Positions 32,341-63,673 of a stretch of 64,000 nucleotides of DNA are shown here, one piece after another. Both the position numbers and the translations under genes were made by a program. The notes beneath the pieces are model-generated. The model was not told the origin of the DNA. It was given only the letters and a program-made list of their open reading frames with translations, and made no database searches. This DNA is from a virus: the IMG/VR virus record IMGVR_UViG_3300047480_000545, positions 124,001-188,000 of that record, one strand, 5' to 3'. How positions within the stretch are numbered: the stretch's first letter is position 1; every line of letters begins with the position of its first letter.

Positions 32341-32366
32341 AAAGACCCCCAATTGGGGGTCTTTTT
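32341..32366. terminator. Bidirectional terminator
   Basis: AAAGACCCCCAATTGGGGGTCTTTTT is a near-perfect palindrome with A- and T-runs, between convergent thyA (+) and the radical SAM operon (-); it can stop transcription from both sides. Confidence 0.93.
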
Positions 32367-33534
32367 ACTTTATAGGGTCTTTTGGATACAGTGGAATTTT
32401 CGCTCCCGGCTTTCGTTTCGGTATTTTACTATCTGCACTTGATACACAGCTTTCACTTATGCAAGGTTTCGGGGAATCAAATAACTTGAACCCGCTTTCA
32501 ATATACCCAAGGGGTTCGTCAGAACAGCTATATGAACGCTTTATTGACCCATCAGGCTCACGGATGATGATGCCACGAAATCCACTAGAACATTCCCATC
32601 CTTTGAATTTGTTGAAGCCAAAAGCATTGAATCGTTCTGCTTGGTCCATATACCACTTCTGTCCAGTGCTATCTTGAAACTCAACTTGCATCATAGCTGG
32701 AACTGACTTATCGTCTCCTGCTTCCATATCGGCTTTCCAGAGGCTTCCTAGCTTCGGTGTGGGTCTGACTACCTTGATGCCACGTTGCTCTTGTATGGCC
32801 TTCGTATAGTCTCTCTGGGGCATTCCATTGCGCATGATAGCAAGTTGTTCTGGCGTGTATCCATCTACTACCCTACTGGCCGATGTATCACTTTGTGGTT
32901 TCAACGTGACGTTTATTCCACGCTCATGAAAATACAGTGCGTTCTGCCAGTCTCTATCAAACCATTCAGGCACCAACACCATATTGATTGTTACCTGAAC
33001 ATCGTGCTCCATACACAAATGCAGTTTATCTACGAACTCGTCTTTATCTGCGAACTCACTATGGTAACTCGCAGTGATTGATGCACGATTGAATTTAGCC
33101 GCAATATCACAATATTTTTGATGCCAATCCATCTTACGTGCCATGTTTGTAGTCATATGAATACTGGTAAAGTTTGTATTTTCTACATCATTTGCTAGGT
33201 GACCCAACATATCTAAATAACCAGGATGGAATGTTGGTTCGCCACCCGATAGACTGAAATGAAAGCTGTTGAATCCGTTATCTCTGGCCTGTCTTTTTAT
33301 TTCGTCTATAGTAGCTAGACAGAGGGCAGTGGGGCGATGGTCCTTTTTGTCACTTCTGGCATATGGCCAGCAATATGAACACTTGTAGTTACAGAACCTA
33401 CCAAGTAGCCAACTCACCGAAAACAAATCACGATAGAGAAGGGTTCTCTGTCCCACTGAAACTAAGTCGTCAAATGGTATTTTTGTAAAATCGTATTGCG
33501 ACCAATACAGACTATCTTTGTTTATTTCCGTCAT
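32365..33534 (-). CDS. Radical SAM protein, SPASM type (rSAM 1)
   Basis: 389 residues. CNYKCSYC (C48, C52, C55) is the CxxxCxxC motif that binds the SAM-cleaving 4Fe-4S cluster; SLSGGEPT is the SAM-binding GGE motif. C-terminal cysteines (CSSGF, SYSCS, CISESC) suit an auxiliary SPASM-like cluster. Last gene of the 19-gene minus-strand operon, overlapping the preceding gene by 23 nt. SPASM radical SAM enzymes act on peptides, sugars or small molecules; the substrate here is unknown. Confidence 0.9.
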   Translation of the reverse strand: MTEINKDSLYWSQYDFTKIPFDDLVSVGQRTLLYRDLFSVSWLLGRFCNYKCSYCWPYARSDKKDHRPTALCLATIDEIKRQARDNGFNSFHFSLSGGEPTFHPGYLDMLGHLANDVENTNFTSIHMTTNMARKMDWHQKYCDIAAKFNRASITASYHSEFADKDEFVDKLHLCMEHDVQVTINMVLVPEWFDRDWQNALYFHERGINVTLKPQSDTSASRVVDGYTPEQLAIMRNGMPQRDYTKAIQEQRGIKVVRPTPKLGSLWKADMEAGDDKSVPAMMQVEFQDSTGQKWYMDQAERFNAFGFNKFKGWECSSGFRGIIIREPDGSIKRSYSCSDEPLGYIESGFKLFDSPKPCISESCVSSADSKIPKRKPGAKIPLYPKDPIK

Positions 33535-34717
33535 TTTTTCCTATTATATCTACTATGTGAGGAAATAATTCCTCCCAATTAGTGGTTGGGCGTTTTGTTT
33601 TGAAATATTCAAATGTAGTTTTCATACATTGTGTTTTATATTCGTTGTGGTCAGTTCCTATTATATTTCTTACATTTTCTAAATGTTCATAATAAGATAT
33701 GCCCAATTCTTTCAATTGTTCAATTGGTTCATCAAGACATTTTTTATACCCTGATGGTAAGTTAGCAGGAGACATTCCCGACTCTTGTGCCATATTGTAA
33801 TTAAACATCTCGTGATGTATTTTACCATATTTGTCAAATAATTCAATAAAATATTTGATATATTCATTCATAGTTGGAACACTGTATAGATTTACGGTCG
33901 GAGATATTCTGACCGTTACGTTTGGCTGTTGAAGTAATACTTCTATGTTTTTAATTGCTGTGTTCCAAGAAATACCGTATCTTATTGCCTCGCATACTTC
34001 TTTGATTCCATCTATACTGCAATCAAATATCCAATTCACGCTCAAGTCGGATTGTATAGCATCCAAGTATTTTTTGAATACTTTAGGTTTGGTATTTGCA
34101 TTGGTGCTTATACAAATTCGTGTTCGGTCGGTTGGAACATATTTTAATATTTCATTCACAAAATCCAATGTTTCTGGGTTATATGTTGGTTCGCCGCCAC
34201 TGAAAAAAAATGTATATATGTTATCGTCTCTGAATACTTTTGTTTTCAATGATGAGATTAATTTAGAAATAACTAGGTGTTTCCATTCATCATTTCCTTT
34301 GTTTTGCGGAACACCCTTTTCTTTCGCCCAACTTGAACTATCTTTAGGTGAACAATAAATGCATTTCAAATCACATGCACTAGATAACACCATTTCGTAT
34401 GTATTGAACATATCATCTACTAGTATGTCGTGATCATCTTGCATATCACGTCCCCACACGTTCCATTCTTCAAATAAACTGTGGTCTCCCATTTTTATAC
34501 ATGTATCACATCCACCAGTTGGAAGTTGGTTATTCAGAACCATGTCTTTTTTACGGCGCATATATTCGGTGTTGAAAATAAAAAAATCATCAGACTTCAA
34601 ATCTTCTACCGAAGATACATAATCGTTGGATTTGCAGCAATTTTTCACACAGTTATATGGAAATTTTATGTTCATATCTGTGAACATTTTGCTGCATACA
34701 TAACGCTTATCAGTCAT
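33512..34717 (-). CDS. Radical SAM protein, twitch-first type (rSAM 2)
   Basis: 401 residues. Radical SAM motif CDLKCIYC (C115, C119, C122) and FFSGGEPTYNP. Upstream cysteines C23, C27, C28 and CDTC (70-73) form the N-terminal half of a probable auxiliary cluster, as in the phage twitch radical SAM family. The ATG at 34717 overlaps the stop of the QueC-like gene (TGATG), so translation is coupled. One of nine radical SAM genes in this operon. Confidence 0.9.
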   Translation of the reverse strand: MTDKRYVCSKMFTDMNIKFPYNCVKNCCKSNDYVSSVEDLKSDDFFIFNTEYMRRKKDMVLNNQLPTGGCDTCIKMGDHSLFEEWNVWGRDMQDDHDILVDDMFNTYEMVLSSACDLKCIYCSPKDSSSWAKEKGVPQNKGNDEWKHLVISKLISSLKTKVFRDDNIYTFFFSGGEPTYNPETLDFVNEILKYVPTDRTRICISTNANTKPKVFKKYLDAIQSDLSVNWIFDCSIDGIKEVCEAIRYGISWNTAIKNIEVLLQQPNVTVRISPTVNLYSVPTMNEYIKYFIELFDKYGKIHHEMFNYNMAQESGMSPANLPSGYKKCLDEPIEQLKELGISYYEHLENVRNIIGTDHNEYKTQCMKTTFEYFKTKRPTTNWEELFPHIVDIIGKNDGNKQR

Positions 34718-35430
34718 CAGAAATACCCGAATGCCCACTTTCGTTCTAAGCACCACCAACAAATGCCACAAGGAGTTTCCTCAAACATTGGGTCAAACTT
34801 TGCATCCAATGGAGTTTTCTTTTCGCAGCTTCGTGTGAGAGGAAGAAGCGTGTCTCTCACTCCATACGCATCATACTGGTCTGCTATGAACTTCTTATCC
34901 ACATTCGCAAATGGACTCCAAAAGTCTCCTTTGCCATCGGTAGAAATATGCCATATGTCATGGTCCGACCCATTTCTGTTTGCTTGCGCTCCCAAAGACA
35001 AGTCTATTGTGTTGCCGTCAATATCTTCTACCGATGCCCCATCTGGCGGGTTCGATGTTATACCACTTACGATTAGGTGCGCTCTACCATCAGAAAACAA
35101 CGAATTTTCTATTTCATGGAAATCTTCAAGTTTTGGTCGTTCTCTGAAATAGATATAATGCATATCTATTATTCCAGAACCAACATTTTCAATTATGTAA
35201 TTGGTAACAAGTTCTGCTTTTCTGCCAGTCCAACGATCTTTTACATCGGTGCTGCATGTCAACACACTCAACTTGACATCAAGATTGTTATCCTTTATGT
35301 ATTTGGCAAGAATATATAGGAGTATACTACTATCTGCACCGCCGCTACAATTTACTGCAACCTTTTTGTATTTCGGAAGTAGAACGATTTCTACGGTCTC
35401 TCCACTTTTTCCTGTAAGAACCAAACTCAT
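34717..35430 (-). CDS. QueC-like PP-loop enzyme (copy A)
   Basis: 237 residues. NCSGGADSSILLYIL is the PP-loop (SGGxDS) that binds ATP; the C-terminus has CEKK...PCGICWWCLERK, the four-cysteine zinc site that marks QueC, which turns a 7-deazaguanine carboxylate into an amide and nitrile. A VSGITSNPP segment is shared with copy B. The start at 35430 overlaps the stop of copy B. No QueD, QueE or FolE is visible, so the substrate may differ: an ATP-dependent amidation or thiolation of some carboxylate is the safest reading. Confidence 0.88.
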   Translation of the reverse strand: MSLVLTGKSGETVEIVLLPKYKKVAVNCSGGADSSILLYILAKYIKDNNLDVKLSVLTCSTDVKDRWTGRKAELVTNYIIENVGSGIIDMHYIYFRERPKLEDFHEIENSLFSDGRAHLIVSGITSNPPDGASVEDIDGNTIDLSLGAQANRNGSDHDIWHISTDGKGDFWSPFANVDKKFIADQYDAYGVRDTLLPLTRSCEKKTPLDAKFDPMFEETPCGICWWCLERKWAFGYF

Positions 35431-36131
35431 TAGAATCTCCCAAATGCCCATTTACGTTCTAAACACCACCAGCACTTACCACATGGTGTCTTTTCAAAAA
35501 CTGATATGTCTTCCCCTTCGTCGGGGATTGACTCACAACTACGAGTCAAATCAAACAAATCATTTGCGTCATATTTATTATACATAGACGCGACAAATCT
35601 TTTATCAACGTTGGCATATGGAGTGTAAAATGCTTTTGCATTATCGTAATACCATAGTTGGTGGTTAGTGCCATTCCTAGACGGAAGCATATCATCAGAC
35701 AACACAATCGTCTGACCTTTGATGTTTTCAACCGTTTCCCCGATAGGTGGGTTACTCGTTATTCCACTAACGAACATATCTACTCTGCCATCAGAAAATA
35801 GCTTGTTTTCTACCTCATGAAAGTATTTCTCGTCTTGAACGTCACGATAATATGTATAATGCAAATCGAAGTTTTGAAACTTGGTCTTGTTCATTGCGTA
35901 TTCAATTACATCAGCAGCACGTCTACCGTTCCATCTACCCTTCTTGTCATTAGAACAAGTTGTAACGGATACCGTAGTATCAGTTCGGTTGTTATCAACA
36001 AGGTATTGAATTACCATCAACAGGAGAATACTACTGTCTGCGCCGCCACTACAATTTACGCCTATCTTCTTATATTTTTCTGGTATATCAAAGTCAATCT
36101 TTTGCCCAGATATTTCGCATTCAAGTATCAT
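35430..36131 (-). CDS. QueC-like PP-loop enzyme (copy B)
   Basis: 233 residues, clearly a paralogue of the next gene. PP-loop VNCSGGADSSILL, VSGITSNPP, and zinc site CESI...PCGKCWWCLERKWAFG. The two copies are adjacent, in the same direction and share a stop-start overlap, so they arose by tandem duplication and have diverged considerably (different loops between the PP-loop and zinc site). They may form a heterodimer or act on consecutive substrates. ATG at 36131 follows AGGAGATAGG. Confidence 0.88.
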   Translation of the reverse strand: MILECEISGQKIDFDIPEKYKKIGVNCSGGADSSILLLMVIQYLVDNNRTDTTVSVTTCSNDKKGRWNGRRAADVIEYAMNKTKFQNFDLHYTYYRDVQDEKYFHEVENKLFSDGRVDMFVSGITSNPPIGETVENIKGQTIVLSDDMLPSRNGTNHQLWYYDNAKAFYTPYANVDKRFVASMYNKYDANDLFDLTRSCESIPDEGEDISVFEKTPCGKCWWCLERKWAFGRF

Positions 36132-36142
36132 CCTATCTCCTA

Positions 36143-37354
36143 TTATATTGTCTCGTTGCCATTTGATTTGTCATACAATTCAACCATGTGCTTCAGCGAA
36201 CCCAAATCATTTTGATGGTCTTTTGTTTCCATAAGTTCAGGCTGTATATTCTTTGTATGAGACTTGAATAGTGCCAACGCAACATCATTTGTTTTTGCTT
36301 TCGGAACGCATAGACCGCAACCACAGTGTGTCTTTGGGCATCGTATGTAAGGTATGCTACCAGATTTCATTTGAGTTTCCATGCCATCAATAAAAGTCCC
36401 AAAATTACTCACGTTGCATATGGGGTTCACTTCGCCATTAAGATTCACTTGACAAGTCTGGTGAAACCAAATCTTGTCGATCTCTTGGTGAATATACAGG
36501 AAATACCAGTTAATCATACAACTCCATCCTTGGAAGTTGTTGTTGGTGATAAACTTAGTTTGGACCCATTCATCGTTGTCAAGAATTTCCATCTTCCTAT
36601 CGCCGCAGCATGGGCGTCCGATAGTCTGTCCCACTACCTTTTCGTTTGGTATGCCGATTTTACTTTCCACCTTCTTGCCATTTTTGGCATTCCAATAGTC
36701 AGTAAACCATTTCATTTGGTCGGCGGTATATGTATGAACTGTCTTGTCTTTTAGACCTTGTTTGATGTCGCCTTGGTCACCAATAATACGCGGGATATAC
36801 TTCACACCCATTTCGTCAAACCATTTACAGAGTTCAACGCACTCATCAAAATAATCTTGGCGCTCATGAAACATAACGTTTACCTTGAAGCCGTATCCTT
36901 CTTCCACCATAATCTTGATGTTTTCTCGGACACGCTTCTTTTGTTCGGGTGAGCCTTCACAGTGGTAACTTAGGGTTGTGAAGTTAGTGTTCTTCATAAC
37001 CAAACGAAGTTTTCTCTCTGAGTAAAATCCGTTGGTGGTCAGTGTTCGGTTCCAGTGTGGGTATTTTTCCTGAAGGTATACCAAGAAATCAAAGAACGCA
37101 GGGTTTACTGTTGGTTCGCCGCCAGTGAAGCTGGCAGAGACTCGAAACGGAGTGTCTCGATACTCATTCAACAACTCGCTGTATCGCTCCAAGTCATCAG
37201 CGGTCTTTTTCAGTTCTTCAAAACTTGCAACCGCACTCCAACTATTCTTTCTATGTGGCGGGCAATAGCTACAGGCATATGTGCATTTTCTGCCTAAGTC
37301 CCATATCACCATCAGTTTCTTTTCGGTTTTGTCGTTTATAGCGCAAAAACTCAT
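36143..37354 (-). CDS. Radical SAM protein, SPASM type (rSAM 3)
   Basis: 403 residues. CTYACSYC (C24, C28, C31), SFTGGEPTVNP, and a C-terminal cysteine set (CMINW, CQVN, CNVSN, CPKTHCGCGLC) consistent with two auxiliary clusters of a SPASM domain. The start overlaps the preceding gene by 4 nt (ATGA). Directly upstream of the QueC-like pair, with an 11-nt gap. Confidence 0.9.
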   Translation of the reverse strand: MSFCAINDKTEKKLMVIWDLGRKCTYACSYCPPHRKNSWSAVASFEELKKTADDLERYSELLNEYRDTPFRVSASFTGGEPTVNPAFFDFLVYLQEKYPHWNRTLTTNGFYSERKLRLVMKNTNFTTLSYHCEGSPEQKKRVRENIKIMVEEGYGFKVNVMFHERQDYFDECVELCKWFDEMGVKYIPRIIGDQGDIKQGLKDKTVHTYTADQMKWFTDYWNAKNGKKVESKIGIPNEKVVGQTIGRPCCGDRKMEILDNDEWVQTKFITNNNFQGWSCMINWYFLYIHQEIDKIWFHQTCQVNLNGEVNPICNVSNFGTFIDGMETQMKSGSIPYIRCPKTHCGCGLCVPKAKTNDVALALFKSHTKNIQPELMETKDHQNDLGSLKHMVELYDKSNGNETI

Positions 37355-38667
37355 ATATCTATTCCATACTCTTCTGCAAATGGTTTTAAGTGTTCAAATG
37401 TTTCAAAGAAATCCCAACCATTATACACTTTTTTGTATTGTGCTGCAACATATTTGTATTTAGAAAAAATCATTTCTGCATCGTCTTGGGATATTTGTTC
37501 GGGCAATACTCTTAATATCTCATCAAATACTTCTGTGTTAATCCTTATACCAAATTCAGATTTTACCGTTGTCAGAATATCTTTTGCATTTAGTATCTGA
37601 GTTTCAGCATATTTTCGTGGAAGATATTTTAAATGCATCCATTTAGGATGTGTCAATGTATTAAAGTTTATTTCTAATTCTCTATCGCCAATGTAATTAT
37701 TTAAAATGGTATCATGCAAGTATCTTGCCATGTTGTCCATATACGGAAGGTTCAAATTACTAATTACCGTATGACTTTTTATGCTGTCAATAAGGCTATT
37801 GGCAGATATCCAAGATGAAAAATTGTTTTTTATTGCGTTGAAGTCTGAACCATGTCGCACATCAACATATTTGTCTGCCGCATCTTGGCTCAACATTATG
37901 GATGTATTCCAACCAGCTTCTTTATACTTCTGAAACATCCCCATGAACCGTTCGTTCAATTTTGGTTTACTAGTTCCATTTGTCACAATCTGTATTATGA
38001 AATCTTTTCCTAGTTTCACATTTTCTTTTGCTGCCTCAATAAAAATGTCAGCATGGTCATACATTTCATTGTGAAGTGTCGGCTCTCCACCCAAATAAGC
38101 GATATTCATTCCATGCTCTGCATTTTTTAATGCATTGACTGCAAAGTCTATCATGTATCCAGTGAACGTTTCTCTATAGTCCGTTTGGTAGTTGTTTTGG
38201 TTTATCCAACTATCATACCCTTTTCCATCGTGACCATTTGAATCAAACGTGTCACTCCATATTTTTCGAAGAGTGTTACTGTTACCCAAGTTGCACATAA
38301 AGCATCCGACATTACAAGTAGAGTTCATCCATAATTCCACACGCGACACGTATGCCTTGTCAACTAACAAATTTCGGTTATTATGTAAACTCGTATACCG
38401 TGGTCCAAATATTTGACGCATACTACGAAGTCCGATGTCTTCTTTTTCCCAACATTGCTTGCAGTCAATGTGCCGCTCGTCATTGTATAATGCTTTTTTA
38501 CGGTCGATAAGAGTTGGAAACTTTTCAAAATAATCTGGCCCCAATTCTTCAAACCAGTCTTTATTGAATTTATACACAACTGCGTCACAGCAAGCGGAAA
38601 ATTCTCCAATTTCTGGTTGGAACTTATACACCGCATAACTCATTGGGCAATGCAATCTATCAGTCAT
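37351..38667 (-). CDS. Radical SAM protein, twitch-first type (rSAM 4)
   Basis: 438 residues. N-terminal C26, C27 and CKQC (69-72) precede the radical SAM motif CNVGCFMC (C118, C122, C125); AYLGGEPTLHNE is the SAM-binding GGE. The order auxiliary-cluster residues first, radical SAM core second, is that of the phage twitch-domain radical SAM family. Overlaps both neighbours by 4-8 nt. Confidence 0.9.
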   Translation of the reverse strand: MTDRLHCPMSYAVYKFQPEIGEFSACCDAVVYKFNKDWFEELGPDYFEKFPTLIDRKKALYNDERHIDCKQCWEKEDIGLRSMRQIFGPRYTSLHNNRNLLVDKAYVSRVELWMNSTCNVGCFMCNLGNSNTLRKIWSDTFDSNGHDGKGYDSWINQNNYQTDYRETFTGYMIDFAVNALKNAEHGMNIAYLGGEPTLHNEMYDHADIFIEAAKENVKLGKDFIIQIVTNGTSKPKLNERFMGMFQKYKEAGWNTSIMLSQDAADKYVDVRHGSDFNAIKNNFSSWISANSLIDSIKSHTVISNLNLPYMDNMARYLHDTILNNYIGDRELEINFNTLTHPKWMHLKYLPRKYAETQILNAKDILTTVKSEFGIRINTEVFDEILRVLPEQISQDDAEMIFSKYKYVAAQYKKVYNGWDFFETFEHLKPFAEEYGIDI

Positions 38668-40066
38668 ATTTGAATATATCCTTCATTTCTGGGAATGTAG
38701 CAGAAAAAGATTGATTGCGTTGACGGTCACACAACTTCAAAAATTCTTCCATCTCTGGTAGGCGATTGCTCCAATCCTCACTCTCCATAAATTGAAGCAT
38801 TCCTTCTAACCGCTTCAATCCATATCCAGCGTTCTTCCACATGTCAAACGTGACTTTACCGCGATGCCATTCTGGTATACCTTTTTCCCAGTTTTCTTCC
38901 CACCAAGGATAAAACTCTTCATATTTTTTACGGCACTCTGCTTTGAACCAAGCTGGCAACACTTTGACGTTCAGGTGAGGCGGATGATACACAAAGTGAT
39001 AGTTTATGCCGCCAGCGCCGAATGGCCACATGTTGATTTTCTTAAAGTTTTGTTCTAATTTCCACTTGATAAAGTCTGGCAGATAGTATATGTTGAGTGC
39101 TTGCACAGCACAAGCTACAGTTATTTCTACATGGTCTGGGGTTTCGTTATCAAGGATATGAAATACTTCTTCTGTTCGTTTCCATTCACTTGGGTAACGA
39201 ATATAACTATTCATGTCGCCAATACTATCAACGGAATAATGAAAGCGAACCAGTTTGAACTCTTTCCACAGGTCAAAGAGGTCTTCTCTCCATTCAACGC
39301 CGTTTGAGTTATATCGTAGCTCTAAGTTCTTGGCATGACCCTGACGAATACATTCTTCCAATATCTCATAGTGCTCATCAATGATAAGACTTTCTCCACC
39401 AGCGAAATAAATTTGCTGCATATTTGGAATTTGTTCATAAAACTGCTGCCAGAACACAGGATTGTTTCTGTGCCAGTTGTAGCTACTGCCGTTGATGGAA
39501 CCTTTGTCTGCCCACTGAGTGTTTTCTTTTAGGGATGGGTTCTGAATTTGTGGGTGTATCACCATCCAGTCTTTGATCCAACTGCTACTATCATGTGGAC
39601 TGCACATGACACAAGCAAGTTGGCACTTTGTTCCAAATCTTAAATCAATATAGGATAGTTTCGGCGGAACTTCACCATCTGGAGTTGTATCGGCAACCAG
39701 TTGTTTTATGTCAACACGTTGTGACCAATAATTGGTTTCCCACATTCTTTTTGAATTGTGGCCAGCGGCTTCTTCCTTGAAGCATTTGGTGCAAGATGGC
39801 GGTATTTCACCATTCATCATTTGTCTTCGCACGTTCTTCATATACGTGCTGTTCCAACTGGTAAGGAAATCGGTTACGTTGAGGTTACTTGGCTTTCCCA
39901 TATCATCTTTGAGGACACCAACCATACCACCATGTTCTTTGTCATTCGTTGGGCCAACACTTGATGCGTTTGCGGTGCAACACACTCGCATTGAACCATC
40001 AGGTCTGGTGCTTAGGTGAACCCACGGCAAGGCACAAAATGTTTTACTGGGATATTCATTGCTCAT
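38660..40066 (-). CDS. Twitch-domain radical SAM protein (rSAM 5)
   Basis: 468 residues, the longest of the set. N-terminus FCALPWVHLSTRPDGSMRVCC (C11, C29, C30) and CTKCFKEE (C92, C95) is the twitch domain; radical SAM motif CQLACVMC (C148, C152, C155); the GGE-like element is FAGGESL. Very like rSAM 7 (42591-43763) in architecture, so these are paralogues. Overlaps the FkbM gene by 4 nt. Confidence 0.92.
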   Translation of the reverse strand: MSNEYPSKTFCALPWVHLSTRPDGSMRVCCTANASSVGPTNDKEHGGMVGVLKDDMGKPSNLNVTDFLTSWNSTYMKNVRRQMMNGEIPPSCTKCFKEEAAGHNSKRMWETNYWSQRVDIKQLVADTTPDGEVPPKLSYIDLRFGTKCQLACVMCSPHDSSSWIKDWMVIHPQIQNPSLKENTQWADKGSINGSSYNWHRNNPVFWQQFYEQIPNMQQIYFAGGESLIIDEHYEILEECIRQGHAKNLELRYNSNGVEWREDLFDLWKEFKLVRFHYSVDSIGDMNSYIRYPSEWKRTEEVFHILDNETPDHVEITVACAVQALNIYYLPDFIKWKLEQNFKKINMWPFGAGGINYHFVYHPPHLNVKVLPAWFKAECRKKYEEFYPWWEENWEKGIPEWHRGKVTFDMWKNAGYGLKRLEGMLQFMESEDWSNRLPEMEEFLKLCDRQRNQSFSATFPEMKDIFKYD

Positions 40067-40689
40067 ATAATATCTTCTTTCGGTATGAAAAAATAATTTC
40101 TACTTTCAAAGTATGGTTTTATCTCAACATAGTTAATTTCTTTAATCGTATCAAAAAACACATCAGTGTTAATATGATGTTCTATGTGTTCAATTTGAAT
40201 TATAGGTCTATTCCTATTCACCAAGTCAATCGCACCTAGAAATATGTTTATATCTTCATATTCTGCATCAATTTTAATAAGGTCAACTGAATTTTCATTC
40301 TTGTAAATATTATCAATCTTATCGGTTGGAATATGATATTCAATAAAATCGTCTTTAGAAAACTCGCCGTCTTCAATGAGTTGATTATATCTATCTCGTA
40401 TCATCGTGCTATAACCAGAATCCAACATGCATCCATAAAAGGTAGTAACGTTAGAAATATTAGATAGACATATGCCATCCAATCTAACATTACTTGGTAA
40501 CCAGTTTGACATTTCACTATATGTAATAGGATTTGGCTCCACTCCTATTACGTTGTCAAAATATTGGCTATAAAACTCCAAGTATCGAATCTTATTCACG
40601 CCAACATCAATTACTGTCCTAAACTCGGACTTTCGTTTCATTAAAAGGTGAAGTGGAAACAAATGTTCTAATGAGTTTGATTTATTCAT
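40063..40689 (-). CDS. FkbM-family methyltransferase
   Basis: 208 residues. TVIDVGVNKIRYLEFY is the FkbM SAM-binding loop and VDLIKIDAEYEDINIFL the second signature. FkbM enzymes O-methylate hydroxyls on sugars and natural products; here it probably decorates the product of this operon. Overlaps both neighbours by 4 nt. A more distant relative is at 1396-2094. Confidence 0.85.
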   Translation of the reverse strand: MNKSNSLEHLFPLHLLMKRKSEFRTVIDVGVNKIRYLEFYSQYFDNVIGVEPNPITYSEMSNWLPSNVRLDGICLSNISNVTTFYGCMLDSGYSTMIRDRYNQLIEDGEFSKDDFIEYHIPTDKIDNIYKNENSVDLIKIDAEYEDINIFLGAIDLVNRNRPIIQIEHIEHHINTDVFFDTIKEINYVEIKPYFESRNYFFIPKEDII

Positions 40690-51230: not shown

Positions 51231-51356
51231 TTACTTGTATATGAATGGATCGCGCTTGCGTAGTTCTTCAATTCTCTTTTTTAGTTCTTTTCGGCGTTTC
51301 CAATCTCTATATGGATATGTTACAATCGCCCAAAAATCTTTGATATATCCTATCAT
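51231..51356 (-). CDS. Small conserved phage protein, 41 aa
   Basis: Short basic protein: an aromatic N-terminus (MIGYIKDFWAIVTYPYRDW), a Lys/Arg/Glu helix (KRRKELKKRIEELRKRD) and ending PFIYK. It resembles small proteins of marine T4-like phages. The ATG at 51356 overlaps the SGNH gene stop (ATGA). A longer in-frame start lies inside that gene. It could be a peptide substrate for the operon's enzymes, but it lacks the Cys-rich or repeated core usual in such peptides. Confidence 0.6.
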   Translation of the reverse strand: MIGYIKDFWAIVTYPYRDWKRRKELKKRIEELRKRDPFIYK

Positions 51357-54870: not shown

Positions 54871-54875
54871 ATTCA

Positions 54876-54883
54876 TATTTATA
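54876..54883 (-). promoter_or_regulatory. Late promoter TATAAATA (minus), 5 nt before ATG
   Basis: Minus-strand TATAAATA, TGAAT, then the ATG at 54870. It overlaps the plus-strand element at 54882, forming a compact divergent pair. Confidence 0.65.
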
Positions 54884-54889: not shown

Positions 54890-54894
54890 GTTTT

Positions 54895-55764
54895 ATGAGA
54901 AAAAAAATAGCAATAATGTTATGTGGATTGTGTAATACAAATCCAAAAAACTTTGACGCAGTGTTTGGCGTATTTGAACGTCTATCTTCTATGTATGACA
55001 TAGATATTGACTATTATATGCATCTATGGACAAATGAACGTAGATTTCCAGAAAACTTTGATGGCGATGAAGAAATAAGATTCAACAGCTATTACGAATA
55101 TCTTCCGACTGAAGACATATCACTTCAAGAAAAAGTAATAAAGCGCATATCTCCAAAATCAATCATTTATTCTGATTTTTCTGAAACTGCCGACAATAGT
55201 TATTATGTAGATTATCCAGCGTATATTTCATATGTAAATACATTGGGTCAATTTTATGCAGTTGAAAAAATAGTCAACTCATGTGACCTGTCTAACTACG
55301 ATTTGATTTTAAGATGGAGATATGATTTAGTAGTAAATCATCATGATTTCATATCAGAAATTTCAAATGTAATAATGAATATTGACCAGTCAAAGAAAAA
55401 CTTCATAACTAAAGATTTTCATATAATTGCTGGTGGGTATAACAAAATTGGAAGCAATGACCGTTGGTTTGGATTTACCCCAAGTGGATTGAATGATTTC
55501 ACTAATATGCATGAAATACTGTTTATTAACACTGGAGGGGCGGAAAGAAAGCTGATATGGGTTGAAGAGGGATTTTACAATTTCGTGGTCGGCAGACAGT
55601 TTGAACGAACAATTGTAAATTTTGAAGAACGAGTTCTAAGAAAAAACATGATTGTAACTGAAAACTATACTGATATGAATAGGGATGGGCAACAAGAAGA
55701 ATTGCAAAATTTTAGCATGTGGATTGGCCCAGAACATGCTAACAATGGGTATCACCCTAACTAA
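54895..55764 (+). CDS. Glycosyltransferase-like protein, paralogue 1
   Basis: 289 residues. N-terminal strand KKIAIMLCGLCNTNP, then an IDYYMHLWTNE strand, YDLILRWRYDLVV, and DRWFGFTPSGLND. The RYDxxx and DxWF patterns recur in the plus-strand proteins at 56839, 58258 and 63728, so they form a paralogous family resembling phage and giant-virus glycosyltransferases. AT-rich. ATG at 54895 is supported by the late element; the longer frame from 54802 would overlap the divergent rSAM gene. Its 3' end overlaps the next, convergent gene by 8 nt. Confidence 0.7.
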   Translation: MRKKIAIMLCGLCNTNPKNFDAVFGVFERLSSMYDIDIDYYMHLWTNERRFPENFDGDEEIRFNSYYEYLPTEDISLQEKVIKRISPKSIIYSDFSETADNSYYVDYPAYISYVNTLGQFYAVEKIVNSCDLSNYDLILRWRYDLVVNHHDFISEISNVIMNIDQSKKNFITKDFHIIAGGYNKIGSNDRWFGFTPSGLNDFTNMHEILFINTGGAERKLIWVEEGFYNFVVGRQFERTIVNFEERVLRKNMIVTENYTDMNRDGQQEELQNFSMWIGPEHANNGYHPN

Positions 55765-56788
55765 ACATTCTCCAAAAGTCATCATCATTCCGAGGAGCAT
55801 TGATTGCGCTTGCGGCTGGCCAAGGGTTTGAGTAATGAACATCGTTTATCAGTAGTCTTGGGGCGTGTGGCAAATCATATATGATGCGAAAATTATCAAT
55901 TCCTGCTTTTCTGATTGCCGTTTCGGTGACATCTCGTGTGTCTTCTTTTCTTGCAGTTGTAAATATCACAGTGGCACCCAATGCAATTCTTTCTTTTAAG
56001 AATTGAATAGCCGATGGGTTTATTGTTGGCTCATTTGAATGACTATTTTTAAAGTATCTGGATTGGTTTTTAAAAATAATACCATCAATATCACAAAAGA
56101 TTGCCATATGATTTTTCATATTTTCAACATATGATTCGTAGGTTCCACAATCAATATAATTTGAACCTTCAATTGCTACCACATTTTCACCGTTTAACAT
56201 CATCTGTTTTATTACATGAGACAAAAATATTTCATTTGACGCATTGTCTTTTATCTGCGTATAACTTTTTATGAAGTCGGATGAACTTTTAAATCCATAT
56301 CCTCCGATACAAATAAATCCACTGGATATCTTTTTTTCTATTATGTCTGTTATTCTGGTTTCATCCTTTATTATGAAACTTTTCGCATGTATGCCATTCA
56401 CCAGTGGATAATTATTTAAATCGGCATACACTACATAATTTTCTTCAATTGGAGTGAAATCAAAAAAGCTATCGCAGTCATTCACGGCAAATGTAGTATC
56501 ATTCCAATCCTTGATTACGTGGTATATGGTTTCGGCTGGACCAGATGTGAAATCATCAAGCACTACCACATCAACCGTGTCTCCGTATGCCTTTCGTATC
56601 GCATACTCAGACTCATACTTTTCGGAATGATCTCTAACAACTACAAATGTTACATGGTATCCATTTTCGATGTAAGGGTCGGCTGCTTGCTGTAACATCA
56701 TTCGGCCATCTGGCATCGTTAGCAAATATTTTGGTCTGGTGTTTTGAAATCTGGAGCTTTTTCCAGCGCACGGTATTATTATTCTCAT
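55757..56788 (-). CDS. Nucleotidyltransferase-HAD phosphatase fusion
   Basis: 343 residues. The first ~225 are a nucleotidyltransferase: IPCAGKSSRF (nucleotide-binding loop), KYLLTMPDG, SGPAETIY, NDCDSFFDF. From about 228 a HAD phosphatase follows: FCDIDGIIF (motif I), FTTARKEDTRD (motif II), LLINDVHY (motif IV). Such fusions appear in capsule and lipopolysaccharide gene clusters, joining sugar-phosphate activation to dephosphorylation. ATG at 56788 follows AAGGAAG. Convergent with the preceding glycosyltransferase-like gene. Confidence 0.88.
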   Translation of the reverse strand: MRIIIPCAGKSSRFQNTRPKYLLTMPDGRMMLQQAADPYIENGYHVTFVVVRDHSEKYESEYAIRKAYGDTVDVVVLDDFTSGPAETIYHVIKDWNDTTFAVNDCDSFFDFTPIEENYVVYADLNNYPLVNGIHAKSFIIKDETRITDIIEKKISSGFICIGGYGFKSSSDFIKSYTQIKDNASNEIFLSHVIKQMMLNGENVVAIEGSNYIDCGTYESYVENMKNHMAIFCDIDGIIFKNQSRYFKNSHSNEPTINPSAIQFLKERIALGATVIFTTARKEDTRDVTETAIRKAGIDNFRIIYDLPHAPRLLINDVHYSNPWPAASAINAPRNDDDFWRMFS

Positions 56789-56801
56789 GGCTTCCTTCTT
56801 A

Positions 56802-56809: not shown

Positions 56810-56817
56810 TGATATGA

Positions 56818-56825
56818 TATTTATG
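56818..56825 (-). promoter_or_regulatory. Late promoter CATAAATA (minus)
   Basis: Right half of the same palindrome, reading leftwards to the nucleotidyltransferase-HAD gene (start 56788), leader ~24 nt. Confidence 0.55.
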
Positions 56826-56838
56826 TGTGTGAAAAATA

Positions 56839-57792: not shown

Positions 57793-57794
57793 AA

Positions 57795-58265: not shown

Positions 58266-59094
58266 AAAAATAAAAATAGCAGTATGTTTATACGGTCAGC
58301 CAAGAAAATTAGAATATACCTCAAAATACATAAAAAAGTATTACGATAATGAAAATTACGAAATTGATTATTTTTGTAGTGCTAAAACATATTACGAATG
58401 GTTTACTGATAAAAGAAAACTTGGTATAATTGAAACAGATGATGCAAATGAAATTGCAGAAAAAATATCAAAAATATACAATCCGAAGTCATTGCGCATA
58501 ATTCCAAAAAGATTGGACGATCTGTGCGATTATGACAAGATACAAAAAATACATTTAGCATTTGCCGATAGTATTCTACTCAAATCAGAATATGAAGCAT
58601 TGAATAATTTTCATTACGACATAACAATTTTACAGCGATATGATTCAATAATATATCCAATGCACGAAACGTTAGATTTTATTGTAAACAGCCTGATGAA
58701 TGCAAAAAACTTTACAAATCCAAATCATGTATTTCATTTCAGAATGGGAAACTACAACAAAAAAGGCAACATAATAAAAATGTTACAAGATGTTGCTTTT
58801 TTTTCTATTGGTAATTCAATGGATATATTCGCAAGTGAACTTATAAAATACGTAGGGGAATTTGGTAAAAGGCGTCAGTCTGATAGAGTGTTAGATGACA
58901 CCATAACAAATATACACGAGCTAATATATGACATATTTGCCAAAAATAATATTGAAATGCACGAGTTTAAGAATGAATTATCTCAAACAAAAGTCAACGT
59001 AACTATAGTAAGAGATGGGTTAGAACACTTGGATATACTTGAAAGAGACACTTGGTTCAAATATAAAGACTTATGGGCAAAAACGCAAACTTAA
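58258..59094 (+). CDS. Glycosyltransferase-like protein, paralogue 3
   Basis: 278 residues. KIAVCLYGQPRKLEYTSKYI, IDYFCSAKTYYEWF, YDITILQRYDSIIYP: same family as paralogues 1, 2 and 4. The LYGQPR start is like CFYGQYR in paralogue 4. AT-rich. ATG at 58258 overlaps the preceding gene, so coupled. Its 3' end overlaps the convergent APH-like gene by 4 nt. Confidence 0.7.
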   Translation: MNKKIKIAVCLYGQPRKLEYTSKYIKKYYDNENYEIDYFCSAKTYYEWFTDKRKLGIIETDDANEIAEKISKIYNPKSLRIIPKRLDDLCDYDKIQKIHLAFADSILLKSEYEALNNFHYDITILQRYDSIIYPMHETLDFIVNSLMNAKNFTNPNHVFHFRMGNYNKKGNIIKMLQDVAFFSIGNSMDIFASELIKYVGEFGKRRQSDRVLDDTITNIHELIYDIFAKNNIEMHEFKNELSQTKVNVTIVRDGLEHLDILERDTWFKYKDLWAKTQT

Positions 59095-59831
59095 CCGATT
59101 AACATATTCAACACGTAATTAAAATCAAAATCATTATTCTTGCAATATGGGAGTATTCTTGAAATCATCAGATTGTAAAGTCCATCGTCAAACATGCTAG
59201 GGTGCTTAGTATCTATGATGCTATATATTTTGTTACATGCCGACACCCAAGGAGCATAAGAAGGCTCTTGTCGGACAAACCAATATCCAGTCAAATCTTG
59301 TCTCAACTTGTTCATATCAAAATATACACTTGTAAATGGAGTTGGCGACAAGTCAATCAGACAAACCTCGTTCTCACAATATATCATATTATCAAACGTG
59401 AAATCACCGTGGGTTATTGATGTTGGATAGACGGTTTTTATGTTTGAAAGATATGACGTTGAAACAAATTCAGAAACCTGTTCTATTTTTTTGTTTATTA
59501 TTTCTGAGAAATCATACATTCCCAGAGAAGAATTTAATGCGTAATCTACATAAGATAATATAAAGTCAGATACTATTTCTATTTTTATAGGATCATTGTC
59601 TCTTAGAACATCTTTTAATGGTCTGCCGTTTATGTATTCCATGAATATAGAATCATCGGAAATATCATATATCTCTGGCGTCCGAAACGGAAGTTTTTTT
59701 GATAATTCGTAAACACCATATGGGTCTTTTACGTTTGTTTTATAGACACCGACAATACCATTTTTTTCGGCCAAATAAACTTTTGCACCGCTTCTTCCAG
59801 AAATGAATTGACTTATAATATTTACATTCAT
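59091..59831 (-). CDS. APH-like kinase (aminoglycoside phosphotransferase fold)
   Basis: 246 residues. VYKTNVKDPYG has the ATP-binding lysine; THGDFTFDNMIY (catalytic HxDxxxxN) and LIDLSPTP (metal-binding Asp) are clear. APH-fold kinases phosphorylate hydroxyls of sugars, choline, homoserine and similar. The ATG at 59831 overlaps the GDPD-like stop; a minus-strand CATAAATA at 59843-59836 is 4 nt upstream. Last gene of the RuBisCO-like operon. Confidence 0.85.
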   Translation of the reverse strand: MNVNIISQFISGRSGAKVYLAEKNGIVGVYKTNVKDPYGVYELSKKLPFRTPEIYDISDDSIFMEYINGRPLKDVLRDNDPIKIEIVSDFILSYVDYALNSSLGMYDFSEIINKKIEQVSEFVSTSYLSNIKTVYPTSITHGDFTFDNMIYCENEVCLIDLSPTPFTSVYFDMNKLRQDLTGYWFVRQEPSYAPWVSACNKIYSIIDTKHPSMFDDGLYNLMISRILPYCKNNDFDFNYVLNMLIG

Positions 59832-60268
59832 ATGGTATTTATGAATGTATCTCCACAAATACCATATATTGTATGATGTATATTTTCAGGCAATGGTATT
59901 CCCAACAAATCAAGCCATACTGCGTTTTTTGAAATTGGAAATACACCTGGATAGCACCATATATTTCCTTTACTAGTGTATGTCATTTTATCGCTTTCAT
60001 GCCAAAAACAATTAGCACCAATTGAGTTCAGATACAGCAAAGATTGCATATCTTTCGCATGACAAAATGAATTATCTGCTAACAGGATATTAGTATCTAT
60101 CTCTTCTTGCGGCGCATCATGCCCAAAATAATATTTGTCTTTCCAGTAGCATACATCACATTCTATTCCATACCCAATAGATAGTGCGTGACCAAGATAG
60201 TCTATTCTATTCTCAAACGATAATTCTATACCATTCGTATTTCCACGATGTGCGATAAAAATTGGCAT
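59828..60268 (-). CDS. Glycerophosphodiesterase-like protein, short
   Basis: 146 residues, about half a usual GDPD. FIAHRGNTNG (catalytic His-Arg) and GIECDVCYWKDKYYFGHD (metal-binding Glu/Asp and His) match the start of the GDPD TIM-barrel; later motifs are weak, so it may be a truncated but functional variant acting on a phosphodiester or sugar phosphate. Coupled to both neighbours by 1-4 nt overlaps. Confidence 0.75.
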   Translation of the reverse strand: MPIFIAHRGNTNGIELSFENRIDYLGHALSIGYGIECDVCYWKDKYYFGHDAPQEEIDTNILLADNSFCHAKDMQSLLYLNSIGANCFWHESDKMTYTSKGNIWCYPGVFPISKNAVWLDLLGIPLPENIHHTIYGICGDTFINTI

Positions 60269-60591
60269 CAGTCAATTACCACTTTATCGTTTGGAATACT
60301 TGGGGTTTTGACACATATGACCACTGTATCTTCCAGAACTTCAACTTCTGTAATTTCCATTGGTTCATATGTAAATACGTCACCTGACGTGACGATAGTT
60401 CCATTTACATTCATTTTGCCACTAATCATGACATTGTATTCAGTAGCGATAACTTGATAGTGTTTTTCTATTTGTTTTCCAGCCGTGTGGTGCAAAACTG
60501 CTACCTCAAACTGGTCTGTTTTTAGCATAGTGGGTTCAAAGTCTCCAATCACCCACCCACCTTTGAAATCAGATAATTTAGCGAATCTCAT
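60268..60591 (-). CDS. Cupin-like protein
   Basis: 107 residues. A small beta barrel: VLHHTAGKQIEKHYQ (two His and Glu of cupin motif 1) and GDVFTYEP. Small cupins in sugar clusters are often isomerases or epimerases of nucleotide sugars, or sensors. Overlaps the nucleotidyltransferase upstream by 14 nt and the GDPD-like gene by 1 nt. Function inferred from context. Confidence 0.75.
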   Translation of the reverse strand: MRFAKLSDFKGGWVIGDFEPTMLKTDQFEVAVLHHTAGKQIEKHYQVIATEYNVMISGKMNVNGTIVTSGDVFTYEPMEITEVEVLEDTVVICVKTPSIPNDKVVID

Positions 60592-61276
60592 GTATATACC
60601 TTTCGTAATCCATAGGCGTTCCTATCGGAGTAAAACTATCAACCTCAATCGCCATGGTTGGTATTCCATTCTGTATTGCATAGTTATATAGTGGAGCAGT
60701 ATAGTATTCACCAAGAGACACCAATCCATTATCTGTATAAAAATCATACGACTGGATAAAAACATCGCCAGAAACCCAATGGTATTGACCGCTGTTGCGA
60801 TATCTACTGATAGGTTGCTTTTCTGCCACACCTAATATATTCATGTTTGAGTCAACGCAGCTATAGCTACTTTTTATATCAAATGAACGGTTTTGAACGA
60901 AAATACAATTCGTGTGATTGTATACGGATTTGAATGTTGTAGAATCGTATGATACTATAAAGTCACAGTCAACTATCAACCATGGTTCGTGTCGAAACTT
61001 ATTGTTTCTTATAACATATGCGGCGCTTGTAGCTGCGCCATCAGTGTAATGGTCTATGCCATAAAACAATCCATCAACATATTGCGAAGGTTTGTATTGT
61101 GTTAGCGCACGTTCTTGAAATAGGAAATGATGGCGAACATCATTTCCCAAATTCAAAGATTTGATTGCAGCGACAAACATTGGGTCGCCGTGAACATCTA
61201 AAAATGGTTTAGGGGTTTGCGAGTATTCTGCAAACCTTGACCCTTTACCAGCACACAACTGCAATACATTAAGCAT
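60578..61276 (-). CDS. Sugar-phosphate nucleotidyltransferase
   Basis: 232 residues. QLCAGKGSRFAEYSQTPKPFL is the nucleotide-binding loop plus catalytic lysine; GAATSAAY and VDCDFIVSYD (metal-binding Asp) follow. It would activate a sugar or polyol phosphate as an NDP or CDP derivative. The ATG at 61276 overlaps the end of the RuBisCO-like gene (8 nt), so the two products act together in translation and probably in pathway. Confidence 0.88.
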   Translation of the reverse strand: MLNVLQLCAGKGSRFAEYSQTPKPFLDVHGDPMFVAAIKSLNLGNDVRHHFLFQERALTQYKPSQYVDGLFYGIDHYTDGAATSAAYVIRNNKFRHEPWLIVDCDFIVSYDSTTFKSVYNHTNCIFVQNRSFDIKSSYSCVDSNMNILGVAEKQPISRYRNSGQYHWVSGDVFIQSYDFYTDNGLVSLGEYYTAPLYNYAIQNGIPTMAIEVDSFTPIGTPMDYERYIHEIR

Positions 61277-62309
61277 CAAATGCCATCCGCAATTCAGTTA
61301 TTTTCTGTTCGATGCTGTCCCCAGTGTGCAACCATCCGCCAACATTTGCAAGCCAATGGTCTCCAATCTCATCACGAATTGACTTCGCTATGTCTGGTGT
61401 CATTCCACAGCTTAACGCAGCCCACACATTGTGTTCTTGACATAGCTTGACTGCATCTCTAACCTCTTGATGGTCGCCAGGATAATACCCGCCAATCATA
61501 CCAACATGTATACTATCAATGCCTTGATAAATTGCCATTTTGACCAACACAGGCCAATCAATTCCCCACGGATTTCTAGGATCAGTCAATACTCTAATTC
61601 CACTTCGTTGGAAATGTGTGAAGAACCCTCGTTGGTTGCTATCAGAATAAGCCCCAAGGCCGCTCCAGAAATTAATATGAACTCCATCGCCATTGCACTC
61701 TTTCACCATATCAAGCTGAGAAACTAGATGTTCTGGATTTCCATTTGTGCAATATGTATACACGGTTTCAGGATATTTTTCCATAATTGGCTGAACAATA
61801 TCCAATCTCTGTCTGAGTGGAAGATACGCAGCGTCAGCCAAAATTTCATCTTCTTTAATAAAGTCAATTCCGCCATCACACATTTGTGTTGTGATGTCTC
61901 GCAATTGTTCGGAGGTAAGTCCAGCTTTTGGTTTCACAATACTACCAATTGCTGGACGATTTCTTTTGACTAATGTCTTGTGCGGAGACTTCTTTACAAA
62001 CGGTTGGTTCAGTTCAAGACCAACGATTCTGCATGATTCCAACAGTGCGATATCGCTCTGCCCGCCATTTATGGTGCAAAGCATTTGACCAATATCAGTC
62101 GTGGAGTGCAAGTTTCTCCACTTGAAGTCAATCACTACCTCGTTGCCGTTGATGGAAATCAATTCCGCTTTGCTTTGTTGTATTCCGTCTGCTTCTTCAT
62201 ATGAAGAACGAATGTCTGGATTACCGACACTTTGCCCCAATACTATGGCGTCAGCAGCTTTTTCTATATTGCTACTCTCAACACGATATGTGACTCTATA
62301 TGTATTCAT
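61269..62309 (-). CDS. RuBisCO-like protein (form IV type)
   Basis: 346 residues, shorter than the ~430-475 of bacterial and plant large subunits. SIVKPKAGLT (K126, K128) corresponds to the KPKxG catalytic loop; GGIDFIKEDE (K152, D154, E155) to the carbamylated lysine and magnesium ligands; DSIHVGMIGG (H268) to the loop-6 region; SCGMTP and NVGGWLHTGD to the phosphate-binding loops. The loop-6 lysine position is not kept (GGYYPGDH), so it is a RuBisCO-like protein rather than a CO2-fixing enzyme. Relatives do enolisations, isomerisations or transcarboxylations of sugar phosphates. First gene of its operon; ATG at 62309 follows AAAGAGG. Confidence 0.9.
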   Translation of the reverse strand: MNTYRVTYRVESSNIEKAADAIVLGQSVGNPDIRSSYEEADGIQQSKAELISINGNEVVIDFKWRNLHSTTDIGQMLCTINGGQSDIALLESCRIVGLELNQPFVKKSPHKTLVKRNRPAIGSIVKPKAGLTSEQLRDITTQMCDGGIDFIKEDEILADAAYLPLRQRLDIVQPIMEKYPETVYTYCTNGNPEHLVSQLDMVKECNGDGVHINFWSGLGAYSDSNQRGFFTHFQRSGIRVLTDPRNPWGIDWPVLVKMAIYQGIDSIHVGMIGGYYPGDHQEVRDAVKLCQEHNVWAALSCGMTPDIAKSIRDEIGDHWLANVGGWLHTGDSIEQKITELRMAFDA

Positions 62310-62339: not shown

Positions 62340-62368
62340 ATTATACCAAATTTATATAATAACTTCAA
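62340..62368 (-). promoter_or_regulatory. Sigma70-like promoter of the RuBisCO-like operon
   Basis: Minus strand: TTGAAG (62368-62363), 17-bp spacer, TATAAT (62345-62340), ~31 nt before the ATG at 62309. A perfect -10 box with the same spacing as the early promoters, so this operon may be expressed earlier than the late radical SAM operon. Confidence 0.75.
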
Positions 62369-62371
62369 GAA

Positions 62372-63673
62372 CTATTTTATATATGCTAAAAGAGCATGTT
62401 TCAACTCTGGTAGTGTTTCTTTCCAATTGAGATGCGATGTTTTGTCATACACATCCATTCTGTTTACCGCTTGACTCATTCTATAATCGATATCAGCTTG
62501 TGTGATATCTCCCCCATTCATATACGTTATAATTTCGTTTACAACTTTAGCACTCAATGGGTGTCCATTTTCAATTAGCCATCTTGATAAATCAACATAT
62601 TCTTCTTCTACAGTTTTCTTTGCTGCATAAGGCAAATATTTTATACTCAAATCTGGAGGATAATCTACATAATTAATGGCGATTACGGATAGATTTTTTT
62701 CAAACCATCCATTTTCAAAACACCATTTAAAAAATCTTGGGCTATGAAATATATTCATTATACTTACAGAAAAACATGGAGACAGGGTTATGTTATTGTA
62801 TTCGTCGCCCTGCGGTTTCATTTCAGATACAACCTGTTTCATCTTTTCCCACGACGATCCTGTTCGTATGTAGTCAGAAACTTCTTCGATGCCATCCACG
62901 CTACCAGCCACTATTACTTGTTTGAACTCTTTCCAATAATCTGCAACCAGTTTGCCTTTGTATTTTGAAATAGTATAGTTGGTGCTGTAATGCAATTCGA
63001 CATCTTTGGATTTTCCCGAATCAATTAGATATTGAAGTGCTCGGTAGTGTTCTTCCATGAGAAGTGGTTCACCTCCAGCAAAATACATTTTTTCTGCATA
63101 CTGCAAAAGATGTTCTATCTTATCATACGCTCCATTTGCTACAAATTTTGGGCTTGAATCATCCAATCTTATAGTATCAAAGGTCACTAGGTTTTGTTTT
63201 CCTATTTCCTTTGTTTCATCAAACCATGCACTACTTGCTTCCCAGTTGCACATTCGGCATCGAAGATTACAAAGATTTCCAAATCTAACATCAAAGAACA
63301 CAGGTTTGTAGTCATCTATATCAATATGGCCATCGGCTCGTGTGGCTTCAATGGCAAATTTAGTTTTTTCCAAATATAATGCATTGAACCTGTCTTTAGT
63401 AGATTCAATACCCTGTTGCATTTTGTATTCGCACAATGAACACATCTCATTCGGCTTATTCTGTAGCATCATGGAACGAATGTATTTCATCCCAGAACTA
63501 TTGATACATTCATCCAATGAACTATCCTGTATGTTCGCAAGTTTTATGTCTGGGGATTTTGAATTAACATACTGCCCACAAGGCGCAACCCTTCCTGTAG
63601 TGGTCACATGAAGGTGTGTCCACGCAAGAGAACATATTCTTTTGTTATTCTTATAATCTATTGGTTGTGTCAA
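62372..63673 (-). CDS. Twitch-domain radical SAM protein (rSAM 11)
   Basis: 433 residues. Twitch cysteines C14, C32 and CSLC (78-81), radical SAM motif CNLRCRMC (C135, C139, C142), FAGGEPLLM. Architecture matches rSAM 5 and 7. The start is TTG at 63673 with a TAGGA ribosome site; no ATG lies before the conserved twitch domain. It sits alone on the minus strand next to the RuBisCO-like operon. Confidence 0.92.
   Translation of the reverse strand: MTQPIDYKNNKRICSLAWTHLHVTTTGRVAPCGQYVNSKSPDIKLANIQDSSLDECINSSGMKYIRSMMLQNKPNEMCSLCEYKMQQGIESTKDRFNALYLEKTKFAIEATRADGHIDIDDYKPVFFDVRFGNLCNLRCRMCNWEASSAWFDETKEIGKQNLVTFDTIRLDDSSPKFVANGAYDKIEHLLQYAEKMYFAGGEPLLMEEHYRALQYLIDSGKSKDVELHYSTNYTISKYKGKLVADYWKEFKQVIVAGSVDGIEEVSDYIRTGSSWEKMKQVVSEMKPQGDEYNNITLSPCFSVSIMNIFHSPRFFKWCFENGWFEKNLSVIAINYVDYPPDLSIKYLPYAAKKTVEEEYVDLSRWLIENGHPLSAKVVNEIITYMNGGDITQADIDYRMSQAVNRMDVYDKTSHLNWKETLPELKHALLAYIK

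Follow-up and report, generated by a model that had tools for sequence, protein, structure and literature searches.

What would a phage do with eleven radical S-adenosylmethionine (rSAM) genes in one region? The question is raised by a 64,000-nucleotide stretch of viral DNA (the window), bases 124001-188000 of IMG/VR record IMGVR_UViG_3300047480_000545, a record of 202,706 bases that is possibly incomplete. As described below, the rSAM genes belong to an array with a fixed backbone and exchangeable cassettes, widespread among marine phages and adjoining genes for tail fibres. Our preferred reading, to which we assign a probability of about 0.42, is that the array forms a hypervariable island of tailoring genes joined to a tail-fibre module, the product being a glycosylated scaffold on the fibres that is tailored differently in each phage.

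All 11 rSAM open reading frames (ORFs) that a preliminary description had counted in the window have an intact CxxxCxxC motif and match PF04055 at E<1e-5, with values from 1e-15 to 6e-6, and these scores rule out chance motif matches. Nine lie in one run (32365-47292), which continues to 52096 via non-rSAM genes; a tenth (53965-54876) overlaps the aminotransferase gene with which it had been paired, and the last stands singly at 62372-63673. From rA (32365) through the glycosyltransferase-like gene GTx3, genes overlap or are separated by gaps of at most 12 bases, an arrangement that fits with a single transcript. The two architectures proposed at the outset, twitch-first and SPASM-last, are both real by motif position and cysteine placement: in rB, rD, rE, rF, rG and rK the motif lies at residue 110-148, behind an N-terminal CxxC-type twitch, and in rA, rC, rH, rI and rJ it lies at residue 13-48, with extra cysteines toward the C-terminus. 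The window rSAM proteins were also scanned with NCBIfam and PADLOC models. The 170-bit cut-off of NF033640 (N_Twi_rSAM) was reached by rB, rE, rF, rG and rK and, outside the window, by rL, rM, rN and rO, and not by rD (144 bits), rA, rC, rH, rI or rJ. In total, the 203-kb record yields 15 PF04055 matches, i.e. four beyond those of the window: rL, rM and rN follow rK a short way beyond the window, and rO lies far off, adjoining a lysozyme-like gene.

The phage origin claimed for this DNA also stands. The DNA polymerase (16459-19200) is T4-like, with Sinorhizobium phage Phosso (49%), Agrobacterium phage Atu_ph07 (46%) and Rak2-like phages (~43%) as its closest cultured relatives; judged by this sequence, the record is that of a T4-like phage whose closest cultured kin are jumbo phages. 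Contigs of related phages are up to 383 kb long, and many members of this widespread group of T4-like marine phages are jumbo-sized. Since a 100%-identical run is also present on a second, separate viral contig, the run is unlikely to be an artefact of assembly. A nucleotide search with the run found no match among cultured phages, nor did tblastn searches of cultured phages with qC1, GTx1, the RuBisCO-like protein and rA; rE, rI, rA, GTx1 and the QueC-like proteins had no close match in a PDB sequence search.

Conservation of the array was traced with rE (38660-40066) as an IMG/VR probe, for which 327 relatives were reported; rE-anchored counts refer to the best 80 of these and, with near-duplicates among them, are counts of loci, not of independent events. 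rE is 77-85% identical over nearly its full length in the 79 loci besides the identical contig, and in its relatives the twitch cysteines and CxxxCxxC are invariant. Genes in the loci follow one another on one strand in the order gt73, gt72, GTx1, GTx3, mt2, rI, (slot), rE, (slot), rC, (slot), rA, and the same backbone order, slots included, recurs in extended stretches from another five records. The backbone, in fixed order, consists of the fibre protein T1, the small protein u74, the GT8-like gt73 and gt72, the GT-A-like GTx1/GTx3, the rSAM enzymes rI, rE and rA and, often, rC. rI is found in 75 of the 78 viral loci with room upstream and rA in 31 of the 50 whose downstream sequence spans 9.9 kb or more (some arrays extend further); the backbone families number 81 (rE), 76 (rI), 40 (rC) and 33 (rA) members. 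Within the fixed slots, whole rSAM and QueC-like genes are gained, lost and swapped. The internal rSAM ORFs form at least 85 families at 40% identity (single linkage), with 32 singletons, and 57 loci have QueC-like genes, for which the rE-rC slot is the commonest place. In a second, independently drawn set of 80 loci, this one anchored at rA, the arrays are again dense, with a median of 6 rSAM genes per locus, the motif intact in 468/472 and rE upstream in 39 of 70 loci; each of the 25 related virus records examined (25/25) carries 7-19 rSAM genes. The preliminary description had held that scattered genes and many disrupted motifs in related phages would speak against a single pathway; instead, many marine phages (~80 loci) share the neighbourhood, the order is kept, and of the 574 full-length rSAM ORFs internal to the loci 573 have an intact motif. 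Two further observations concern the loci themselves: rC appears as two adjoining ORFs of 236 and 153 residues in L015:14865-16033, and similarly in L018 and L025, possibly a split gene, and an AMP-binding (adenylation) enzyme adjoins the array on the opposite strand in L061:976-2037 and in some relatives.

Two pairs of loci give direct evidence that the arrays turn over gene by gene, as modules. L034 and L041 are 97.9% identical across 15 kb, after which L041 has one additional rSAM gene (1.1 kb) between two shared genes; L061 and L083 are 84-89% identical until one gene boundary, beyond which their rSAM genes differ. rE itself has changed more slowly than the replication genes with which it was compared: it is 79-85% identical to that of the window phage in four related viruses (G001, G008, G015, G017), while for most replication and other genes in those pairs identity is ~46-57%. 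Such conservation could stem either from strong constraint or from inter-phage exchange. Slow rE evolution, together with the presence of arrays on hundreds of viral contigs, points to a product that is important to a major ocean phage group.

The connection to tail fibres lies at the other end of the backbone. Upstream of gt73, all 15 loci examined have u74, and 14 of the 15 also have T1 two genes upstream; the genes of the block T1-u74-gt73-gt72-u72-GTx1 overlap, u74 and gt73 by 3-10 bases in every case. T1 has a homologue (28% identity) in the cultured Pseudomonas phages PA5oct and Paride, and that of PA5oct (gp360) is a virion protein by mass spectrometry, encoded in a block with an annotated long tail fibre protein. 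T1 homology and the fixed gene overlaps together indicate that the array is joined directly to a tail-fibre module, and such a module closes off the region in the window phage. Tail-fibre genes and glycosyltransferases, whose joint presence marks a host recognition cluster, thus stand together in the T1/GT order of the 15 loci.

Part of the backbone also has a bacterial counterpart. A genome scan recovered rE at 52-63% identity in metagenome-assembled genomes (MAGs) of Bdellovibrionota, on contigs of up to 937 kb, with a strong match in 16 of 291 sampled genomes. In these loci rI, rE and rA are neighbours, frequently accompanied by GTx1 or GTx3 and in some cases by PP-loop, PLP and oxygenase genes. 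Relatives of rA in phages and Bdellovibrionota are 56-80% identical (alignment A2), and rA is the last array gene in relatives. Tree distances of the triad rI/rE/rA correlate at 0.79-0.83 over 43 loci, a level reached in 0 of 500 permutations (phages only, 0.52-0.85). One Bdellovibrionota locus, L110, which may be a prophage remnant, also has T1-u74-gt73-gt72-u72-GTx1; across the Bdellovibrionota sample, T1 and the triad showed no general association (T1 in 1/291 genomes). Two candidate bacterial examples from Acidimicrobiaceae and Chloroflexi MAGs (L108, L109) were set aside, as these MAGs contain contigs with a T4-like DNA polymerase and the arrays are phage-like; phage contigs seem to have been mis-binned into them.

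What such an array might make is suggested by the chemistry of its enzyme classes. rSAM enzymes act at unactivated carbons, where they form C-C, C-S or C-O bonds, generate epimers or dehydrogenate; QueC-like enzymes activate carboxylates by adenylation and yield amides or nitriles; FkbM enzymes methylate, and carbamoyltransferases cap hydroxyls. On the preferred reading, the backbone glycosyltransferases and the triad rI/rE/rA would build one conserved glycosylated or crosslinked scaffold, and the cassette enzymes would tailor it by radical C-H chemistry and by QueC-like carboxylate adenylation and amide formation, with methylation, hydroxylation and carbamoylation as further steps, such that each phage would bear a chemically different version. 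The scaffold would most likely sit on the virion tail fibres encoded in the same gene block, where its variation would change host recognition or hide the fibre. A more specific proposal, which we consider doubtful, is that swappable rSAM cassettes acting on a conserved scaffold pathway confer a phage-specific chemical identity on the fibres or on a co-displayed product, and that the predatory Bdellovibrionota use the core triad on their own surface. If true, host-recognition variation would arise via chemistry and not amino-acid sequence, and fibre modification would add a chemical layer to phage host range. The arrays are also a large reservoir of uncharacterised rSAM enzymes (at least 85 families from 80 loci), and the tail-fibre linkage and the bacterial triad render their function directly testable.

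The enzymes named as partners in the preliminary description, which had envisaged a pathway for glycan, nucleotide or base modification, leave a glycan-type product plausible. That description did not include the RuBisCO-like protein at 61269-62309, the four further rSAM genes of the record, the organisation into backbone and cassettes or the tail-fibre linkage. Pfam was applied to 20 partner genes of the window; the carbamoyltransferase and the FkbM methyltransferase are solid assignments, and the SGNH hydrolase is a DUF6071 match only. The glycosyltransferase-like protein has a weak match of its own and a relative, GTx1, with a GT-A-like fold (model pLDDT 88.5; resemblance to GT-A glycosyltransferases, with weak matches). 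The oxygenase is weak by score (HalD, 18 bits), yet has the HxD...H...R motif, and the two QueC-like enzymes are remote (PF06508 at 16.0 and 16.2 bits, cut-off 22), yet keep SGGADS and a four-Cys site, SCE..CxxCxxCxER, both invariant in 20 relatives (alignment A5). Several points weigh against a fibre scaffold. Foldseek gave weak matches (TM ~0.3) that do not tell a peptide substrate from a sugar one. Polysaccharide work on host surfaces also typically involves kinase, nucleotidyltransferase and carbamoyltransferase genes. Additionally, plus-strand genes separate the T1 end from the rSAM run in the window phage, and among the 291 Bdellovibrionota genomes T1 occurs in just one (L110) vs 16 for rE, from which it follows that the triad has no need of T1.

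The alternative that ranks second behind the fibre scaffold is an unlikely one in our estimate: the array would modify the host envelope (O-antigen or another surface glycan) during infection and thereby block superinfection by competing phages, fibre adjacency reflecting no more than the usual place of host-interaction genes. Glycosyltransferases, a carbamoyltransferase, nucleotidyltransferases, a kinase and an SGNH-type hydrolase are all present, Bdellovibrionota hold the triad without T1, and a pelagimyophage study proposes the same role for the glycosyltransferases of its host-recognition cluster (PMC7029224). However, no flippase, polymerase or initiating sugar-phosphate transferase was found among the Pfam-scanned window partners, glycosyltransferases are far fewer than rSAM genes, and overlap with the fibre block recurs across phages.

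Less likely still is a system akin to those of ribosomally synthesized and post-translationally modified peptides (RiPPs), or a protein-crosslinking system, in which a 74-aa protein encoded before rI in most relatives would be the substrate or carrier, crosslinked by the twitch/SPASM enzymes. Twitch/SPASM rSAM enzymes are mostly peptide modifiers, and the rE model (pLDDT 74.5, moderate) is closest to PqqE and SkfB, with AprD4 also among its best matches, enzymes that act on peptide or sugar substrates; these matches are weak, however, and the sugar enzymes AprD4 and DesII are among them. The gene for the 74-aa protein (L061:6463-6687 and most other viral loci) usually overlaps the start of rI, but the protein is conserved over its entire length, unlike a variable core, and is absent from the window phage, G004 and the Bdellovibrionota loci. 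It has no Pfam match, and its PDB matches, to engineered repeat proteins, are marginal and likely due to chance.

We regard as improbable a small-molecule product (a modified or antiviral-type nucleotide, or a secondary metabolite) directed at the host or at competing phages. The cores of rH and rA are viperin-like, and the RuBisCO-like protein, the kinase and the nucleotidyltransferases suggest building blocks; even so, the best NCBIfam viperin score, that of rH, is 52 bits against a cut-off of 180, minimal relatives such as G008 are without building-block genes, and no exporter is among the genes scanned. The RuBisCO-like protein has a KxDE metal-site motif (KEDE at 152); its best non-Rubisco model is 3-oxo-isoapionate-4-phosphate decarboxylase, and it recurs in one identical IMG/VR contig and in none of 50,697 phage records. 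Hypermodification of phage DNA bases, the remaining alternative, is very improbable and the base or nucleotide part of the earlier proposal unsupported: some phage base-modification operons contain glycosyltransferases and QueC-like genes are present here, but the possibly incomplete 203-kb record has no QueD/PTPS and a single, ordinary thymidylate synthase, no Tet/JBP match was obtained in a search whose control was silent, and the array has a fixed link to tail-fibre genes, not to replication genes.

Table 1. rSAM genes and partner genes of the window (positions in the window; all on the minus strand).
Gene	Position	Strand	Assignment and evidence
rA	32365..33534	-	Backbone rSAM, C-terminal cysteines; CNYKCSYC at 48
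rB	33512..34771	-	Twitch-first rSAM, variable cassette; NF033640 171.8 bits
qC1	34717..35451	-	QueC-like PP-loop enzyme, variable cassette; PF06508 weak
qC2	35430..36131	-	Second QueC-like PP-loop enzyme; 50% identity to qC1, same motifs
rC	36143..37354	-	rSAM, frequent backbone member; 40% single-linkage family in 40 viral loci
rD	37351..38667	-	Twitch-first rSAM, cassette; CNVGCFMC; NF033640 144 bits, below cut-off
rE	38660..40066	-	Twitch-first rSAM, most conserved backbone enzyme; NF033640 415 bits
FkbM-type methyltransferase	40063..40689	-	PF05050 41.9 bits
u1	40686..41507	-	Protein of no assigned family; no Pfam match; 28% relative in L088/L090
rF	41492..42625	-	Twitch-first rSAM, cassette; NF033640 203 bits
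rG	42591..43763	-	Twitch-first rSAM, cassette; NF033640 377 bits
rH	43744..44703	-	rSAM with viperin-like core, cassette; PADLOC pVip 57 bits
2OG-Fe(II) oxygenase-like	44700..45248	-	HalD weak, 18 bits; HVD...H...R
rI	45245..46333	-	Backbone rSAM; relatives 44-77% identical, Bdellovibrionota included
mt2	46330..47247	-	Rossmann methyltransferase-like; no Pfam match; same-slot relatives in phages and Bdellovibrionota
GTx3	47216..49657	-	Repeated glycosyltransferase-like; GT2 weak; single-domain relatives adjoin rE in Bdellovibrionota
Carbamoyltransferase (NodU/CmcH type)	49701..51221	-	PF16861 180 bits, PF02543 137 bits
SGNH-hydrolase-like (DUF6071)	51353..52096	-	PF19547 32.5 bits, sole match; GCSFTxG
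PLP aminotransferase	52959..53972	-	PF00155 113 bits
rJ	53965..54876	-	rSAM overlapping aminotransferase gene; CNLQCTFC; W_rSAM 74 bits
Nucleotidyltransferase-HAD phosphatase fusion	55757..56788	-	PF12804, PF03767
APH/RIO-type small-molecule kinase-like	59091..59858	-	Weak Pfam; 35% relative adjoins nucleotidyltransferase in G004
Cupin-like protein	60268..60591	-	PF17954 17.4 bits, weak
Sugar-1-phosphate nucleotidyltransferase-like	60578..61279	-	Arch_glmU 27 bits
RuBisCO-like protein	61269..62309	-	PF00016 99 bits (cut-off 30); Rubisco 83, OiaX 74 bits
rK	62372..63673	-	Twitch-first rSAM; NF033640 339 bits

Beyond the run, G004 has a relative of rJ (69% identity) together with the aminotransferase. 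Plus-strand genes, some of which share a CFYGQ/CLYGQ-type start, interrupt the array at 54862-59094 of the window and at L001:4722-7125, and GC content drops to 0.30-0.32 at 56-60 kb of the window, which suggests recent gain. The same record has, by sequence likeness, putative genes for a Sir2-type deacylase (L003:226-693) and a C5-cytosine DNA methyltransferase (L003:2293-3186).

The preliminary description knew of no described phage system with this content. rSAM-rich T4-like phages and rSAM cassettes are in fact on record: the marine T4-like virus TARA_ERS488813_N000010, a 183-kb genome reported in 2017, has 12 rSAM genes and so resembles the window phage in kind and number, but these are treated in the available text only as one part of Fe-S cluster demand, with no analysis there of gene order, backbone or function (PMC5332604). 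Radical SAM cassettes were likewise noted in 2020 in the hypervariable host-recognition cluster of pelagimyophages, where they differ between two genomes (PMC7029224), and rSAM genes are enriched in Tasman Sea phage contigs (PMC7150976). The pelagimyophage cluster, also from marine phages of the T4-like kind, resembles the present region in content, being a hypervariable island of large size in which tail-fibre genes and glycosyltransferases stand together; in that study, however, rSAM is mentioned in passing and the genomes measure 132-164 kb, whereas here 7-19 rSAM genes are arranged on a backbone with slots (PMC7029224). The backbone, slots, QueC-like partners, fibre overlap and Bdellovibrionota triad are absent from the available text of these three open-access sources (PMC5332604, PMC7029224, PMC7150976), and to that extent the present architecture, along with its counterpart in bacteria and its link to fibres, appears to be undescribed.

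Comparison with known enzyme families and cultured phages places the array further. Five window enzymes and four outside lie above the NF033640 cut-off, but N_Twi_rSAM is a sequence subfamily, at least 5 of the 11 window enzymes fall far outside it, and no function assignment for it was found in the open-access literature. The QueC-like proteins share the PP-loop SGGADS and four-Cys C-terminal site of QueC (7-cyano-7-deazaguanine synthase) and differ from it in scoring below the cut-off, in belonging to a record without QueD/PTPS, and in having dozens of divergent relatives within rSAM arrays. Finally, Vibrio phages K566/K567 offer several adjoining rSAM genes in a 255-kb cultured phage; identity is ~22-26% and no other backbone gene was detected in the compared stretch, and K566, with rSAM genes at 19881-26617 and 36193-37248 (L009), is a possible experimental model.

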